Made by a program: the position numbers and the translations under genes. 26,350 nt of DNA from a virus. Below, piece after piece: positions 2,976 through 15,073 of the stretch. How positions within the stretch are numbered: position 1 is the first letter of the stretch; each line of letters opens with the position of its first letter. The notes under the pieces are model-generated. The model saw only the letters and a program-made list of their open reading frames with translations. It searched no databases and was not told the DNA's origin. The DNA is taken from positions 1-26,350 of IMG/VR virus record IMGVR_UViG_3300031952_000117; one strand, 5' to 3'.

Positions 2976-3731
2976 CTAAATTGTATGCGGCGGATTCGGC
3001 TGATCGGTCGATTTCACTCTATAAAGAGTCTTCCTTTCAGCCTCAGGCGCATGGTGCACAGTTGGCGGAAGCGGATACAACTTTCCTTCCGCTGGAACCT
3101 GCGGCTTTAACTTTTCCGTGCGCTCGTGGAAATCGTAATCTTCGGCGTCTATAATCACGATGGGCTCACCCATCGTCAGGTCGGCACCAAACTGTCTCTC
3201 CGCTTCATAACGGCTGCGGCGTTGCAGGTTAATACGCCATTGCAGGTGAAGCGGCAAATCTCCCAAGAACTGGTCGCGCTCAAGGCTCTCGACGTCCCAA
3301 AAGGCTACGTCGCCTTGGTGCGTCGTCCATATTGCAATCACGTCTCCCGCGTCCGGAATAATGGAGCCACGTGCGGCAATAAGGACATTCGCAATATCTT
3401 CCGGAATAGTTTCCTCGAATAACTTTCGGCTAATATATGCTGTGGCGGACATGTCCTGATTTCCGCCCTTGTTTTCCTCGAACTCCTTCGGTTCATCTGG
3501 AGTTTGCATATGAACGGGCATAATCAGCGGCCCTGCAAACTTCCAGTTCTTTTTTTGTTCCCCGTATAAAACGTCCCGCTGGAAGCGGGACTCGTCCTGA
3601 GTAACTGGAGGCAAGATCTTCAAGTAGTACTTGCCACGTGGCGAAGTTAGCCGTTGAGCCTCCGCGTTTATGCTATCGAAGAAGCCCAGCTCTTCGGGCC
3701 GAAAAAAAAGGTTTCCAGTATCAGCGGGCAT
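2976..3731 (-). CDS. Probable neck or head-closure-type structural protein (251 aa)
   Basis: A soluble 251-aa protein without signal peptide or coiled coil. The order of its N-terminal blocks (EAQRLTSPRGKYYLKILPP, then a LYGE segment, then a long polar loop, then an ISRKLFEE segment) is loosely reminiscent of T4 gp14-type neck proteins, which also have a tyrosine-rich YYL strand followed by a GE loop and an SR helix. Length is also close (T4 gp14 is 256 aa). This is a by-eye resemblance and could be misleading. A later block, residues about 128-165 (GDVIAIW, then FWDVESLERD), is rich in Trp and acidic residues. The ATG lies 1 nt after the stop of the 157-aa gene, so the pair is probably translationally coupled. 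Confidence 0.6.
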   Translation of the reverse strand: MPADTGNLFFRPEELGFFDSINAEAQRLTSPRGKYYLKILPPVTQDESRFQRDVLYGEQKKNWKFAGPLIMPVHMQTPDEPKEFEENKGGNQDMSATAYISRKLFEETIPEDIANVLIAARGSIIPDAGDVIAIWTTHQGDVAFWDVESLERDQFLGDLPLHLQWRINLQRRSRYEAERQFGADLTMGEPIVIIDAEDYDFHERTEKLKPQVPAEGKLYPLPPTVHHAPEAERKTLYRVKSTDQPNPPHTI

Positions 3732-4220: not shown

Positions 4221-5363
4221 TTAGATGGCCGGAAACGCCTTCTTGCTATAGTCCACCGATCCACGAAGAACGTTCATGAAATCGGACATGAAGCGAAGGT
4301 TCTTAACAAGCTCCGCGCCTTCCTGAGTGGCATCGCCCCACTCAACGACGTCGGCGAGAGCGCCCGCCAGCTTCGTCATCTCGGTAATATCGTTGGTCTC
4401 GGTGAACTTCCGGTAAATATTAACGAACTTTGCCTTGTCGTCCTCCTCGAAGCGACTCATCGAGGCGGCAATAAGATAAGGGAGAGCGCGTTCGAGATAC
4501 CCACCATAAGAGAACACATCGAGAACGCCGGTATCGCGAGCGCCACCGACTCCAGCGCCCGTGGTCTCCTCTTTCAGGATGGCGATGAACTTGGGAGCCC
4601 TGCGCTCTGTAACGGTGCCGGAACCCCACTGCTTCCCTGACGGGGCGAGAGCAAGGCGTAGAAGCTCGCCAAGCGCGTCATTCGTCTCGTTCTTCTTTCC
4701 CTCGTCCTCGTCGCCTTCCTCGTCATCATCCTCGTCGTCATCGTCTTCGTCGTCCTGCTCGTCCTTCTTCGGCTCTTTGTCGTCGTCCTTGTCGGCCTTC
4801 GGCTCATCGGCCTTTTCAGCCGGAACTTCTTCCTCGTCTTCCTCGTCCCCGTCCTTCTCGGGGGCTTCCGCTGGCTCTTCTGCGGGAACCTCTTCGGGAG
4901 CTTCAACGGGCGCTGCGGCAGGAACCGCAGGGGCCGTTGGGAGGGATACCACTGGAGCTGCTGGCGCTACGGGGGCTGCCGCCTGAGGCGCGGCCTGATC
5001 TCCCGTGATAACCGGCGGCTCGTCCTTAACTTCCTTGTCCTTCTTCTTGCCCTCTTCCTCTTCGTCCCCTTCTTCATCCTTTTCAGCTGCGGGGGCGGCG
5101 GGCTTCTTCTCGGCGGGCTCGTCCTTCGGCTCGTCTACGGGCTCGTCGTCTTCGTTCTTGGCCTTCTTCATGCTGCCAAGGTACGTCTCAAGATCCTTGA
5201 TCAGCTTCTCGGGCATGTGCTTCTCAGTCCCGAGCTTCTTGGCCACGCGCTGGGCGGCTTCGGCCAGAGGGATTCCGCCGTCAACGCACGCCTGTGCCAT
5301 CCGCTTCGCCTCACTGATCTCGCCCGGAAGCAACTCTTCAGGGGCCTCTACCACCTTGAACAT
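4221..5363 (-). other. Possible internally initiated C-terminal product of the 772-aa gene
   Basis: In frame at residue 393 the message reads CTTAGGAGAGACAAAATG, i.e. a near-ideal AGGAG with a 7-nt spacer before ATG. Translation from there would give a 380-aa protein containing the acidic low-complexity region and the C-terminal domain but neither FFKKLA module. The Shine-Dalgarno is made from two AGG/AGA arginine codons. The signal is directly visible; its use is inferred. Confidence 0.45.
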
Positions 5364-6601: not shown

Positions 6602-6614
6602 GAGTAAGTTACTC
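6602..6614. repeat. Palindrome over the stop codon of the endonuclease gene
   Basis: GAGTAAGTTACTC is a perfect 13-bp palindrome that includes the TAA stop of the endonuclease gene (6609-6611), just upstream of the TTGAAA promoter. It could be an operator or a short RNA hairpin. There is no T tract, so it is not a canonical terminator. Confidence 0.4.
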
Positions 6615-7535
6615 TGCCACGGTTTTCTTTGAAAACATCCGATTAAAGACATCCGCGTGGTCTCTTTGATACTTAATCCACTTGTTATAATTTAGGTCTC
6701 CACGATTGAATTCGTTTGAATCTCGGTAAAACCAATCGCTTAAAGACAAGCTATCTGCCGTACCAAAGCTGAGCGTATGCCTTAGGTTCCTTGAAAAACT
6801 ATTTTTATTAACATAAGAATAAATACATCCACCTTTTACAACTTTCGCATCCTTTAAGTACGAAAAAAGGTCTTTTATAAAAGATTCTGCGGCAATGGCC
6901 AAGGAAGCAATAAATCTTGTTATGGTTCTTCCCTTTGGAAGAATCGATGAAAACGACCCATCTCCATCCCAAAACCCACGAACAAAATGCGGCATAAGTG
7001 GCTTTTCAAGGTTTACAAACTTCAAACTTGTGCACTTATCGTGCTCAATCCCAAAACGTGACCGCAAATCTTCACACATTTTTAAATTGCTAATAATTGC
7101 GCTATGAACATTAACATCAGGCCTCTTCTGGAGCTGGCCCCCCTTTGTTATTGCTATAAGTTTCTGACAAATATCCTCAGAAGCGGAAACGCACCAGTTA
7201 TTTCTTCTAACATGTCCATCTGACAATATAAGGCCTAGCACCCATGCCATATCGGGCGTATCTTTCTTGAAAAGATCTTCATCATACAAATACTTAAGAT
7301 TAAATCCGTTCGTATACGGATTTCTATGTTTTCCTTGTCGCCACTCAAGAGTACGCGCTTCCGAGCGAGAACGCATTAAACCAAGTCTCTTCAAAACATC
7401 ATAAGCTGTCCCGACTCCGATTCCTAGGCGCGTATTAATCTCATTTGCACCAACTCCTGCCAAGTGAAGATCGCGGATCTTCTCATATGTTTCCAAGCTA
7501 TGTTTTCTGGGTTTCCAGTTTATAACTATAGACAT
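6609..7535 (-). CDS. Free-standing LAGLIDADG homing endonuclease with N-terminal HTH (308 aa)
   Basis: Two LAGLIDADG-type motifs are visible: MAWVLGLILSDGHV near residues 96-109 and PHFVRGFWDGDGSF near 182-195. Each carries the acidic residue expected to bind the catalytic metal, so the protein is probably a single-chain, pseudosymmetric DNA endonuclease. Residues 16-52 look like a resolvase-type helix-turn-helix (LHLAGVGANEINTRLGIG) that would add DNA recognition. It starts 4 nt after the stop of the neck gene, with GAGG upstream, and ends just before the promoter of the 772-aa gene. Neither neighbour is interrupted, so it is free-standing rather than intron-encoded. Its DNA looks more AT-rich than the flanking structural genes, as expected of an acquired mobile gene. 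It probably cuts a cognate site in related phages lacking it. Confidence 0.9.
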   Translation of the reverse strand: MSIVINWKPRKHSLETYEKIRDLHLAGVGANEINTRLGIGVGTAYDVLKRLGLMRSRSEARTLEWRQGKHRNPYTNGFNLKYLYDEDLFKKDTPDMAWVLGLILSDGHVRRNNWCVSASEDICQKLIAITKGGQLQKRPDVNVHSAIISNLKMCEDLRSRFGIEHDKCTSLKFVNLEKPLMPHFVRGFWDGDGSFSSILPKGRTITRFIASLAIAAESFIKDLFSYLKDAKVVKGGCIYSYVNKNSFSRNLRHTLSFGTADSLSLSDWFYRDSNEFNRGDLNYNKWIKYQRDHADVFNRMFSKKTVAE

Positions 7536-8376: not shown

Positions 8377-8395
8377 CTAGGCCGAATTAGCCTAG
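8377..8395 (-). terminator. Weak hairpin over the stop codon of the 140-aa gene
   Basis: CTAGGC (8377-8382) pairs with GCCTAG (8390-8395) across a 7-nt loop that includes the TAA stop. On the minus strand it is followed within 4 nt by TTTTT. The 6-bp stem is short, so at best this is a partial terminator or an mRNA end-stabilising hairpin ahead of the neck gene. Confidence 0.35.
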
Positions 8396-8809
8396 CAGGG
8401 AGTCAGTCTTGATCTTGGCGTTCTTCACGTGCGCCAGCACCATTGAAAGAGCGCCAATCTGTTCGGTATTCTCGTGAAGGCCCGCACGCACGATCTTGGC
8501 CTGAATCCCCATGATAATCAAGTCGAGTGCCCCGGACGTATGTTTTAGAATCTCCAAAACTTGAGGGTTTAACGAAATTCCGGACGGCCTTTTTTCTATA
8601 GCAGGCTGCTCAGCAGGGCTGGCAGCATAAGGAGTTGACTGTTCAGGAGCTGCAACCGAAGGAGCGGGCTCCTCGACTATGGGCGTCACAATCGGAGCCA
8701 AGTTCACGTCGGAACTTAGTTCCGCCTTTTCGCTACCAAGATTTTCTACACTTTCGGCCATTTTCTCAAGCTCTGCCAAACGCTTAATAATGTCGTTTTC
8801 GTCGCTCAT
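8387..8809 (-). CDS. Small unknown protein with coiled N-terminus (140 aa)
   Basis: The ATG at 8809 (MSDENDIIKRLAELEKMAE) is preferred over a longer frame to 8875. The extension lies inside the 3' end of the upstream endonuclease gene, and an AGGT sequence precedes 8809. Residues 1-25 form a likely short coiled coil. Residues 40-75 are a Pro/Ala/Glu linker, and residues 78-140 are a helical domain with a hydrophobic centre (ALDLIIMGIQAKIV). The gene contains one copy of the 13-bp GGAACTTAGTTCC palindrome, translated here as part of AELSS. It begins 11 nt after the endonuclease stop. Family and function unknown; position between capsid and neck genes suggests a virion protein. Confidence 0.65.
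   Translation of the reverse strand: MSDENDIIKRLAELEKMAESVENLGSEKAELSSDVNLAPIVTPIVEEPAPSVAAPEQSTPYAASPAEQPAIEKRPSGISLNPQVLEILKHTSGALDLIIMGIQAKIVRAGLHENTEQIGALSMVLAHVKNAKIKTDSLLG
8711..8723. repeat. 13-bp palindrome GGAACTTAGTTCC, copy 2
   Basis: Perfect palindrome identical on the opposite strand to copies 1 and 3. Unlike the others it lies within a coding sequence, that of the 140-aa protein. Confidence 0.6.
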
Positions 8810-8820
8810 AAGCACTTTAC

Positions 8821-9720
8821 CTAACTGGCGGACTTTAGTAAGCTGCGTTTCACACGACGGGCGCAAGCATGACACATCTCTCTATACTCGGAAACTCGCC
8901 CGCAACCGAACTTGCACGCCGGTCGCGGATTCTCTTTCCTAGTCTTCTCGGCCAGACAGGTTCGGCAAATCCCGGATTCCTTCAAGACCGGCGTCCTGCC
9001 GCACCCGCAAGGCTTATCGATCTCATCGGCGATCTTGAGATAAGACTGATAAACCCTGTACCCGTTATCCCCGCGATTCCCCGGAGACGAGCCGTTGTAC
9101 AACCAATTTGCAACTTTTAGGGCGGAAGAACCCGCCCACGAAAGCTTGTACTGAGTATAAATCTTTTCGGAATACTTGTCTTTCTTCGTGCTTGGACTAA
9201 CAGAAACTTCCGGAAGTCCTTCAGAAATCAACACTTTGTTCAGGTCTTCCGTAAAGCCCGGAACTGAAGAACTGAATGTAACTTTTAGGGAATCGTTTCC
9301 CCTCCATCCGTGTTTTGCCCTGTTTTCAATGAACGTGCTTCCATCAGAATCTATCAAGCCACGCACGAAATGATTCAGATATTCCTTTGGAATTCTATTG
9401 GCCGGGAACTTCAAGCAGCCCATCTTGTCGCCGCACAAACCCCAGTTACTCTCAAACCACTCAACAACTTTTCTTGATCCGAAGTAAGTCTCTATTCCAT
9501 TTTCTGTCTTTCTGCAAGTCGGAGCAGAAGGACAAATCAGCGCTTTCCATTTGTCAAGAAGATCGGCCTCTTTAGAATTACCACTCAACGAAACTCTACA
9601 ATTCTTTTTTGACTTGTATATATTTCCATCGCCAAAGGTAAGCCCGAGCATCCAAGAAAAATCGGCAGACCAACCGCCGTTCAGAACGTCCCACCTAATC
9701 TCTTTTCCCGGTCTTGCCAT
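8821..9720 (-). CDS. Free-standing LAGLIDADG homing endonuclease with zinc-ribbon tail (299 aa)
   Basis: Two LAGLIDADG-type motifs are present, FSWMLGLTFGDG (residues 21-32) and LNHFVRGLIDSDG (115-127), with the expected acidic residues. The C-terminus has two zinc-binding units: Cys238/Cys240 with Cys252/Cys255, and Cys269/Cys273 with Cys283/Cys286, probably extra DNA-binding ribbons. The start is placed at 9720 (MARPGKEIRWD). The longer frame to 9771 would translate through a large hairpin and has no ribosome binding site. The only candidate, GGAG, 12 nt upstream, overlaps the base of that hairpin. The gene sits between intact capsid and 140-aa genes, so no intron is involved. It is probably a mobile gene that spreads by cutting capsid-region DNA of related phages. 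Confidence 0.88.
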   Translation of the reverse strand: MARPGKEIRWDVLNGGWSADFSWMLGLTFGDGNIYKSKKNCRVSLSGNSKEADLLDKWKALICPSAPTCRKTENGIETYFGSRKVVEWFESNWGLCGDKMGCLKFPANRIPKEYLNHFVRGLIDSDGSTFIENRAKHGWRGNDSLKVTFSSSVPGFTEDLNKVLISEGLPEVSVSPSTKKDKYSEKIYTQYKLSWAGSSALKVANWLYNGSSPGNRGDNGYRVYQSYLKIADEIDKPCGCGRTPVLKESGICRTCLAEKTRKENPRPACKFGCGRVSEYREMCHACARRVKRSLLKSAS

Positions 9721-9721
9721 T

Positions 9722-9782
9722 GTGCAATTTGCTCCGCTTCCGATTTTACTCGGAAGCGGCCCAGATTGCACTACTAATCTGG
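9722..9782 (-). promoter_or_regulatory. Two alternative RNA hairpins between the capsid and endonuclease genes
   Basis: Structure B has an inner perfect 10-bp stem (CCGCTTCCGA 9734-9743 with TCGGAAGCGG 9750-9759) and an outer 7-bp stem (9722-9728 with 9765-9771). Structure A is a 7-bp hairpin (9761-9767 with 9776-9782) that shares bases with the outer stem of B, so the two exclude each other. B ends right before the endonuclease ATG at 9720 and overlaps its only Shine-Dalgarno. There is no T tract. Translational shut-off of the endonuclease is inferred. Confidence 0.6.
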
Positions 9783-9803
9783 CAAATTCGCTAAGCAGTC
9801 TCC

Positions 9804-11288
9804 TTACGGATTCTGCTGTTGAACTTGGCTGATAAGGATCGGTTCAGCGGCCCGAGTAGCCTTATCGATATTCACGACCGATACTGTCCCGTAAAATTCC
9901 GGACGGACTAGGCGTCTGCCGTAGCGCGTGCGGAGAGCCTTCCTCAACTCGAAGTTGTTCGGGTCAAGGAACGTAGGAGTTACTTGCAGCGGGATGTACG
10001 GCGCGAAGATGTATCCCGCGTCAAGGAACGTTGGTCCAAGGAACCCCATCAGAACCTTAGAGCGGGGGAACAGGGGGTCCTTGTAAACCGTGTAGCGGCT
10101 CTGAACGGCTCCGACCTTCACGATTGCGCCCGAGTACACGCTCTGGGACGCGTCCGGCGTGAAGAACGGAGTGCTGTCGAGCAAGCTCGCGACGTCAGGA
10201 GAAGTAACGCCCCAGTTGGCCGGTCCACGCAGCGTCTTCTTGTGGATGTCATTCGCGACCTTGTTCATCGCGACGATGAACGCCCAGAGATGGTCACGAG
10301 CGACGGTGCCCGCCGGGGGCTGTGCATCGAACACCGAGGTCGAGGGCGGGAACGGGCAGCCTTCGATTCCCGGAGTCTCAGCGGCGAGGAGCAGGTCGGA
10401 CAGGATCATGCGGTCCACTTCGAGCGAAATCTCGTTGGCCACGCCAGCCACGAGTTCGGCCTCGATGTCGCCGCCGTGCAGAGCGCGAAGATCTTCCGCC
10501 GCCTCAGCGGACCACAGGCTCTTCAGCTTGCGGGTTTCGGCCTCGATGGGGATGCGCTGCACGTCGATGTTGACCTGACCGATGCTCGGATTGAGTTCCG
10601 AGTCATAACGATAGGACCAAGTGAGGTCAGCCGTGATCACGCCTACGCCGTTGACGGTCAGACCGGCAACGAGTGCGGTTGCGTAGTTAATCGTTCCGGC
10701 GACTGCACCCGTAGAAGTCGGGACAGCAATGAAAGCGCCGTTCTGGTCCACGGCTTCAAGGTTTGCGCCTTGGAAGATGCGGATCGTTCCGGGCTTCACG
10801 GGCTTGAAACTCGCAGTAGGCGTAAACGGACCAGCGCCCGCTCCGTTGGCGGCGATCAACTCGCCGATCACGTCTTCGGACGAGTAGTTCTTGTCGAAGT
10901 TAGCGATCATTTCCGTCCCGGCAACCGTCGGACCCTTGTTCGTGCCGTAACGATAGCGCCAGAAGAAGACCGCGCCCACGGGCGAAGTCATCGGCTGGAC
11001 CGACACGAGGTTGTACGCGACGAGCTGCGGCCACGAGCGACGAACGGTGGGGAAGATGAACTTCGTGTAAGGCCCGACCATGAAGGCGCGGGTCTCTTCG
11101 TCCATCCGCTCCAGATCCTGAGCTTGGTTCTCAAGCAACAGGGCCGTCACGCGGCGACGATACTCTTCATTGATGCCCGCCAGAAGGCCCGTGGCCTCCC
11201 ACTTGCGAATGATGGGCTTCATGAAGTAGTCGTTCGCAACAGACGGTGCATCGCGCAACGCCTTGTTCGTGTCCTCTGTCAACTTCAT
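9804..11288 (-). CDS. Major capsid protein, T4 gp23-like (494 aa)
   Basis: Residues 77-115 show the signature of gp23-type capsid proteins: a FIFPTVRRSWPQLVAYNLVS segment, SVQPM, then a Gly-rich VGAVFFWRYRYGTNKG strand. Length (494 aa) is close to T4 gp23 (521 aa). It would form the hexameric lattice of the prohead. T4 gp23 is trimmed by the gp21 protease after L/I-x-E; candidate sites here are Ile39-Asn-Glu41 and Leu51-Leu-Glu53. A strong GGGAGGAAGAG Shine-Dalgarno precedes the ATG, as expected for the most abundant protein. The third codon positions look GC-rich compared with neighbouring genes, by eye only. It follows the protease-scaffold gene by 31 nt, the order seen in T4 (21-22-23). 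Confidence 0.9.
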   Translation of the reverse strand: MKLTEDTNKALRDAPSVANDYFMKPIIRKWEATGLLAGINEEYRRRVTALLLENQAQDLERMDEETRAFMVGPYTKFIFPTVRRSWPQLVAYNLVSVQPMTSPVGAVFFWRYRYGTNKGPTVAGTEMIANFDKNYSSEDVIGELIAANGAGAGPFTPTASFKPVKPGTIRIFQGANLEAVDQNGAFIAVPTSTGAVAGTINYATALVAGLTVNGVGVITADLTWSYRYDSELNPSIGQVNIDVQRIPIEAETRKLKSLWSAEAAEDLRALHGGDIEAELVAGVANEISLEVDRMILSDLLLAAETPGIEGCPFPPSTSVFDAQPPAGTVARDHLWAFIVAMNKVANDIHKKTLRGPANWGVTSPDVASLLDSTPFFTPDASQSVYSGAIVKVGAVQSRYTVYKDPLFPRSKVLMGFLGPTFLDAGYIFAPYIPLQVTPTFLDPNNFELRKALRTRYGRRLVRPEFYGTVSVVNIDKATRAAEPILISQVQQQNP

Positions 11289-15037: not shown

Positions 15038-15072
15038 TAAAAACAAAAACCCCCGATTTTATTCGGGGGTTT
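15038..15072 (-). terminator. Strong intrinsic terminator after the portal gene
   Basis: A 10-bp stem (15047-15056 with 15063-15072, five consecutive C:G pairs) with a 6-nt loop is followed on the minus strand by TTTTTGTTTTT. It lies 25 nt beyond the portal stop and should end the packaging transcript. Confidence 0.9.
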
Positions 15073-15073
15073 C

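Follow-up and report, generated by a model that had tools for sequence, protein, structure and literature searches.

The major capsid gene of this phage is followed by a stable intercistronic hairpin and, directly behind it, by a gene for a putative LAGLIDADG homing endonuclease, which raises the question of which of the two genes the hairpin serves and how these elements came to lie together. The DNA analysed is an IMG/VR virus record of 26,350 bases from an uncultured T4-like virus, here called the window, and all genes of interest are on its minus strand (Table 1). No tRNA was found in the window, and no known RNA family matched it at gathering score.

Table 1. Genes and RNA elements of the window referred to in the text; stems are given as 5' arm / 3' arm.
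Feature	Position	Strand	Details or basis
Major capsid protein gene, Gp23 family	9804..11288	-	Stop TAA 9806-9804; PF07068, E 8e-67; phrog_138
Capsid gene tail with silent recoding, final ~43 codons	9807..9932	-	Change point versus L001, permutations
Putative LAGLIDADG homing-endonuclease gene, 299 aa	8821..9720	-	ATG 9720-9718; PF14528, phrog_4645
P0004, next gene of the capsid operon	8387..8809	-	Homolog in L001, 46% identity over 67 aa
Second LAGLIDADG-like gene	6609-7535	-	phrog_4645; low GC, 0.40
Canonical terminator with T-run, behind 911-aa gene	15046-15073	-	Loop CGARTAAAATCG
Inner 10-bp hairpin, CCGCUUCCGA-GUAAAA-UCGGAAGCGG	9734..9759; arms 9759-9750 / 9743-9734, loop 9749-9744	-	
Outer 7-bp stem, GUGCAAU/AUUGCAC	9771-9765 / 9728-9722	-	
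Third, outermost 7-bp stem, UUUGCCA/UGGCAAG	9786-9780 / 9719-9713	-	Predicted from MFE and pair probabilities
Competing 7-bp stem, CCAGAUU/AAUCUGG	9782-9776 / 9767-9761	-	Sequence; predicted probability 0.0006
Shine-Dalgarno-like GGAG	9732..9735	-	GG within inner stem; predicted P(unpaired) of GG 0.0

The downstream gene had been taken for a homing endonuclease in an earlier, sequence-only reading of the locus, and profile searches support a protein of this type. The product matched LAGLIDADG_3 (PF14528) with 24.0 bits, just over the Pfam cut-off of 22.5, and gave a clear match to phrog_4645 ('endonuclease', E 8.9e-15); the domain lies in a stand-alone ORF, as in free-standing LAGLIDADG genes. 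Alignment with the homologs from three relatives (L055, L095 and L067) supported the ATG at 9720, and the acidic residues D31, D124 and D126 were invariant in all four proteins. An N-terminal extension from GTG 9771 was considered, for which the frame is open, but homologs begin near ATG 9720. A scan of viral contigs with the single protein gave no match; a search with the alignment of the window protein and its three relatives did find homologs, in 51 loci, some of which are second views of loci from the capsid scans described below. The capsid gene was directly upstream in 9 of these 51 loci, including the seven best. No match to the endonuclease was detected in annotated phage records or, at E 0.01, among solved structures, and no close endonuclease-bearing relative of the window was found. 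Clustering of endonuclease genes near capsid and other essential phage genes is described in PMC10448857.

Several additional features were observed in this endonuclease family. CxC/CxxC repeats, which in the alignment resemble small zinc-binding modules, were present at the C-terminus, two in the window protein (8821-9010, minus strand) and three in the L055 endonuclease. In three relatives, single ORFs behind the capsid gene (L067:4085-6310, L069:4122-6365 and L066:4022-5788) joined an endonuclease-like N-terminal part, with LAGLIDADG_3 recognized in L067 and L066, to a region similar to N6_N4_Mtase DNA methylases (E 0.007 in L067, 3e-6 in L069 and 4e-5 in L066; only L069 passes the Pfam cut-off). 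Such fusion ORFs possibly encode self-protecting endonucleases. Two other relatives, L105 and L002, had good sigma-70-like promoters, which match the consensus at 10 and 9 of 12 positions, respectively (fraction of 200 shuffles as good, 0.00). The -10 element of each ends only 6 bases short of the endonuclease ATG, and endonuclease transcripts in these loci could be nearly leaderless.

Between the capsid and endonuclease genes, the sequence-only reading had placed an inner, an outer and a competing stem next to the endonuclease AUG, and all of these elements are present where it put them. Its expectation that the region would fold is borne out by computation beyond chance: none of 200 dinucleotide shuffles matched the predicted stability of 9680-9830 (z -4.5; here and below, folds are of RNA alone at 37 C, and the host's temperature and the real transcript ends may differ). 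The hairpin is the longest inverted repeat with near-perfect arms among those listed for positions 1-24000 of the window (86% complementary, versus 79% and 74% for the 24-base and 23-base repeats in the same list), and its exact sequence had 0 matches in viral contigs. The AUG lies one base past the end of the outer stem, and a third, outermost stem, absent from the earlier reading, is predicted to extend over the first codons of the gene and to pair the U and G of the AUG. The hairpin had also been said to cover the endonuclease Shine-Dalgarno sequence. The pairing itself holds up in the predicted fold, in which the GG of GGAG lies in the inner stem, but this Shine-Dalgarno is only moderate (anti-SD duplex, -5.8 kcal/mol), with a long spacing of 11 nt to the AUG. 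Since a structure over the Shine-Dalgarno, the AUG or both is what defines a sequestered ribosome binding site, the computed fold belongs to this class.

The general shape of the hairpin, two stems around an internal loop, also brings to mind an RNA processing site. We take such two-tier stems to resemble phage RNase III sites, and cleavage by a double-strand-specific RNase would separate capsid from endonuclease mRNA. It is the general shape only that points this way, and the hairpins of most relatives are of a simple, terminator-like form, which makes processing a very improbable role.

A further proposal of the sequence-only reading was a switch, in which pairing shifts between the outer stem and a 7-bp hairpin by the capsid stop, the latter opening the endonuclease start. 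Both stems exist and are mutually exclusive, their local energies differ by just 1.5 kcal/mol (-29.3 kcal/mol for inner plus outer stem, -27.8 kcal/mol for inner plus competing stem), and the competing stem would presumably be the first to form during transcription. However, inclusion of the third stem makes the competing state less favorable by 4.7 kcal/mol, and its probability in the full ensemble is 0.0006. The exclusivity extends to the outer and third stems only, and its functional relevance could not be confirmed: the inner stem survives, the GG of GGAG is still paired when the AUG is partly freed, and exposure of positions -20 to +12 with the competing stem forced is predicted to cost 21.2 kcal/mol. 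Because of this low probability and because the Shine-Dalgarno stays paired in either state, we rejected the switch, which appears scarcely credible. Riboswitch-like alternation would involve two states of similar occupancy, with the start open in one of them, and the computed ensemble is not of this kind.

How well the start is hidden was evaluated from the predicted cost of opening positions -20 to +12. This cost was 25.8 kcal/mol for the endonuclease, the highest of 20 starts in the window; the start of the second endonuclease gene (7535) was next with 19.9 kcal/mol, and the remaining starts required at most 14.2 kcal/mol. Compared with dinucleotide shuffles, z was 3.0 for the start at 9720 and 3.2 for that at 7535, and did not exceed 1.3 in the 18 non-endonuclease genes of the window. 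The claim of an occluded endonuclease start is therefore supported as a prediction, this being the least accessible start of the window, and the hairpin behind the capsid gene probably hides it, which would repress translation of the endonuclease. Among 14 endonuclease starts (two in the window and 12 in relatives, with L096 scored as a carrier here and in the recoding tests below), four had z of at least 2.3, compared to 3 of 63 controls (Fisher p 0.018); the controls comprised next genes from loci in which no endonuclease was detected (3 of 45) and the other genes of the window (0 of 18). Thus, predicted occlusion is strong in the window, yet it is no general rule of this endonuclease family, because only 4 of the 14 starts are unusually occluded.

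Endonuclease start sites hidden in this way have a known solution in T4-like phages. For I-TevI, PMC2988022 and PMC3014915 describe a structure that acts on early and middle transcripts and a late promoter whose own transcript escapes it. A comparable internal promoter in the window would leave the capsid transcript locked and allow translation of a short transcript that lacks the 5' arm, the layout documented for I-TevI (PMC2988022). A candidate, GTGCAA-17-TAAAAT, ends in the hairpin loop, with its -10 element ending 22 nt before the ATG, and transcripts starting 5-9 nt downstream of it would need only 5.0-7.9 kcal/mol for opening, versus 25.7 kcal/mol. However, this candidate matches 8 of 12 positions, which is equalled by 10% of shuffles, and it was absent from a stricter scan. 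We consider this explanation improbable; in contrast to I-TevI, no convincing internal promoter was found in the window, and the transcript concerned is presumably that of the capsid gene.

The distribution of hairpins behind capsid genes was then examined in related phages. IMG/VR scans with the capsid protein gave 21 loci and those with a capsid alignment gave 80 loci; genome contigs yielded a single distant capsid, L156, which was left out. From 102 matched capsid loci, three (L026, L075 and L086) were dropped as too short behind the stop, and merging of loci with identical first 60 downstream bases left 65 distinct capsid ends, in some of which the capsid stop is uncertain. A strong hairpin, defined as a stem-loop below -15 kcal/mol within 80 nt past the stop, was present at 52 of these 65 ends (window included), compared to 25 of 314 ends of other ORFs within these loci and to 5 of 325 shuffles. 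Such hairpins were about equally common with an endonuclease gene behind the capsid gene and where none was detected (13 of 14 and 39 of 51, respectively; Fisher p 0.27; L096, a short locus with an endonuclease start, stands outside the 14 and was scored as endonuclease-free in this comparison, and the endonuclease assignments of L059 and L092 are weak or partial), and the hairpin is therefore primarily a feature of capsid gene ends. The idea that it exists for the endonuclease alone finds no support in these relatives; the loci with a comparable hairpin but no detected endonuclease include the closest relative of the window, L001 (capsid 83% identical), whose hairpin also has an inner and an outer stem and is followed directly by the P0004 homolog.

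The hairpin might accordingly stabilize or end the capsid message only, burial of the endonuclease start being a by-product of gene position. Besides its occurrence irrespective of endonucleases, this explanation is favored by the T content around the stem end, where 41 of the 52 hairpins have 5 or more T within a 12-base span, as in intrinsic terminators, and by the terminator at 15073-15046, which has the same loop, CGARTAAAATCG, as the capsid hairpin. However, the common loop is only weakly significant (two matches in 7 of 100 shuffles), the window hairpin, like that of L001, lacks a T-run, and its two extra stems reach exactly over the AUG. We regard an exclusive capsid role as unlikely. 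An intrinsic terminator was considered for the window hairpin itself and rejected: it has no T-run, with only 2 T among the 8 bases that follow the stem and 2 in the 12-base stretch across the stem end, and a terminator scan of the window did not list it.

Among endonuclease carriers, the layout of the window, with hairpin and gene abutting, was also seen in L095, where the endonuclease ATG is 7 nt past the stem of a terminator-like hairpin. In six other measured carriers the ATG was located 33 to 112 bases further on from the hairpin. The endonuclease AUG of L055 is within the loop of a weaker hairpin.

The capsid gene itself is altered at its 3' end. When the window was compared with L001, the one relative on which recoding in the window is based, 32 of the last 35 capsid residues were conserved, and just 8 of these 32 codons had the third base in common. 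The best change point was at 9932, before which the third base was common in 224 of 362 same-residue codons and after which it was common in 10 of 39, a contrast that was reached in 0 of 2000 permutations. GC content at third positions was 0.51 in the last 35 capsid codons, 0.75 in the whole capsid gene and 0.52 in the endonuclease gene. No donor of the recoded tail was detected in phage records.

Recoding of the capsid end was linked to the presence of an endonuclease in the relatives as well. In a pairwise test of capsids with 70-97% identical residues, which covered 55 of 69 capsid genes, the tail was significantly diverged (p<0.01) in 11 of the 238 pairs that combine a carrier with a non-carrier, in 1 of 28 pairs of two carriers and in 1 of 453 pairs of two non-carriers, and the strongest pair was that of the window and L001. 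Per locus, tail identity was lower in carriers than in non-carriers (16 versus 44 loci, p 1.3e-5; 67 of 69 genes were covered, with a usable partner in 16 of 19 carriers and 44 of 48 non-carriers). The effect persisted when the window was left out (p 3e-5) and when near-duplicates were removed (p 5e-6), both calculated from rounded input values; since the loci are related rather than independent, these p-values are indicative. A scan along the capsid gene located the difference between carriers and non-carriers in the last windows only. Change points 24 to 48 codons from the capsid end were found in L106, L002 and L017, and the comparison of L095 with L088 had its change point at the capsid 5' end rather than in the tail (tail versus body, p 0.0014).

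Genes that have received a replacement C-terminus together with an endonuclease are recognized by two features: a 3' end that is synonymously diverged from carrier-free relatives, and C-terminal codons that occur once more past the endonuclease gene. The window capsid gene has the first. The second was not found behind its endonuclease, but is seen in relatives: L055 and L095/L110 encode the last eight capsid residues again past the endonuclease gene, with 8 of 8 residues matching in each and base identities of 21/27 and 26/27, respectively. In a native-copy comparison of L055 with its 12 nearest relatives, the remnant was closer in 8, further in 3 and equal in 1. The second copy of L055 is at about 4981-5007. 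Positions in L110 are about 3174-3200 and 4230-4256, with a further partial copy beyond the first, apparently two in series. A TGCTTA direct repeat was tried as an insertion boundary and rejected, all eight listed flank matches being equally good (10 of 14 bases). A scan with the neck protein found no relative, and a search past the second endonuclease gene for a duplicated end of the neck gene gave nothing convincing.

Considering these data together, we lean, slightly, toward a dual role, in which a post-capsid intercistronic hairpin also locks the start of a LAGLIDADG endonuclease, with capsid tail, hairpin and endonuclease gene forming one tract. Here, the post-capsid hairpin would be lengthened by two extra stems and abutted by the free-standing endonuclease gene, so that its 3' side would double as the endonuclease ribosome binding site. 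Folded on capsid mRNA, this hairpin would delimit the capsid message and bury GGAG and AUG, leaving translation of the endonuclease low and unswitched. When a co-infecting phage has an unmodified capsid 3' end, the enzyme would cut there, and repair of the break from the carrier would install the tract of tail, hairpin and endonuclease. The hairpin would then serve the capsid message as its predecessors did, while its position would keep the endonuclease low. Because the recoded tail and the endonuclease gene flank the hairpin, we infer that the three arrived together. More tentatively, and with some doubt, the endonuclease may spread as a capsid-end replacement cassette that consists of its own recoded tail, a stand-in post-capsid hairpin and the endonuclease gene locked by that hairpin; the tail, being silently recoded, would therefore be immune to the enzyme. 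Both the target site and the mobility of the enzyme are suggested here by sequence comparison.

Several known systems resemble this arrangement in part. The sequence-only reading had pointed to hairpins that hide ribosome binding sites of phage homing endonucleases, and these are indeed documented for I-TevI, I-TevII, I-TevIII, segB and mobE (PMC2988022). According to PMC2988022 and PMC3014915, the genes of T4 (I-TevI/II/III and segB) and Aeh1 (mobE) share with the window a stable RNA structure over the endonuclease Shine-Dalgarno in a T4-like phage; however, these enzymes are of the GIY-YIG or HNH type, whereas that of the window is LAGLIDADG. T4 segD adjoins the major capsid gene 23 and has intrinsic terminators up- and downstream, but it encodes a GIY-YIG enzyme and is in the opposite orientation (PMC2988022). 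Aeromonas phage 25 seg43(25) is immediately preceded by a hairpin of high stability, but its ribosome binding site is described as free (PMC2988022). For the recoded tail, the closest likeness is with fungal mitochondrial ORFs that carry a replacement C-terminus, in Allomyces atp6 and in Glomus atp6, atp9, cox2 and nad3 (PMC3630166). As described in that paper, an endonuclease, mostly LAGLIDADG, lies right after a gene whose 3' end has diverged mostly at the DNA level, and the native C-terminal codons are left behind the endonuclease, as they are here in L055 and L095/L110. Unlike the fungal cases, the gene concerned is a phage capsid gene rather than a mitochondrial gene, and the window itself has no left-over copy. 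Intronless homing of free-standing T4 endonucleases, with co-conversion, is similar in that an endonuclease lies beside a gene that differs in sequence between carriers and non-carriers (PMC2988022); in the window phage, unlike in that system, the cleavage site and homing are putative.

Hairpin locks on phage endonuclease genes are thus already known, and the window hairpin alone would be a further example. Among the openly licensed papers matched by literature searches on this subject, none had a title or abstract opening that reports recoding of the capsid end together with a phage endonuclease. The association of endonuclease carriage with silent rewriting of the capsid end only points to a homing target at this site and to avoidance of self-cutting. 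If true, capsid 3' ends would be traded by selfish genes, and these elements would be a phage counterpart of the fungal mitochondrial elements that carry a C-terminus, located at a gene whose expression is among the highest in the virus.
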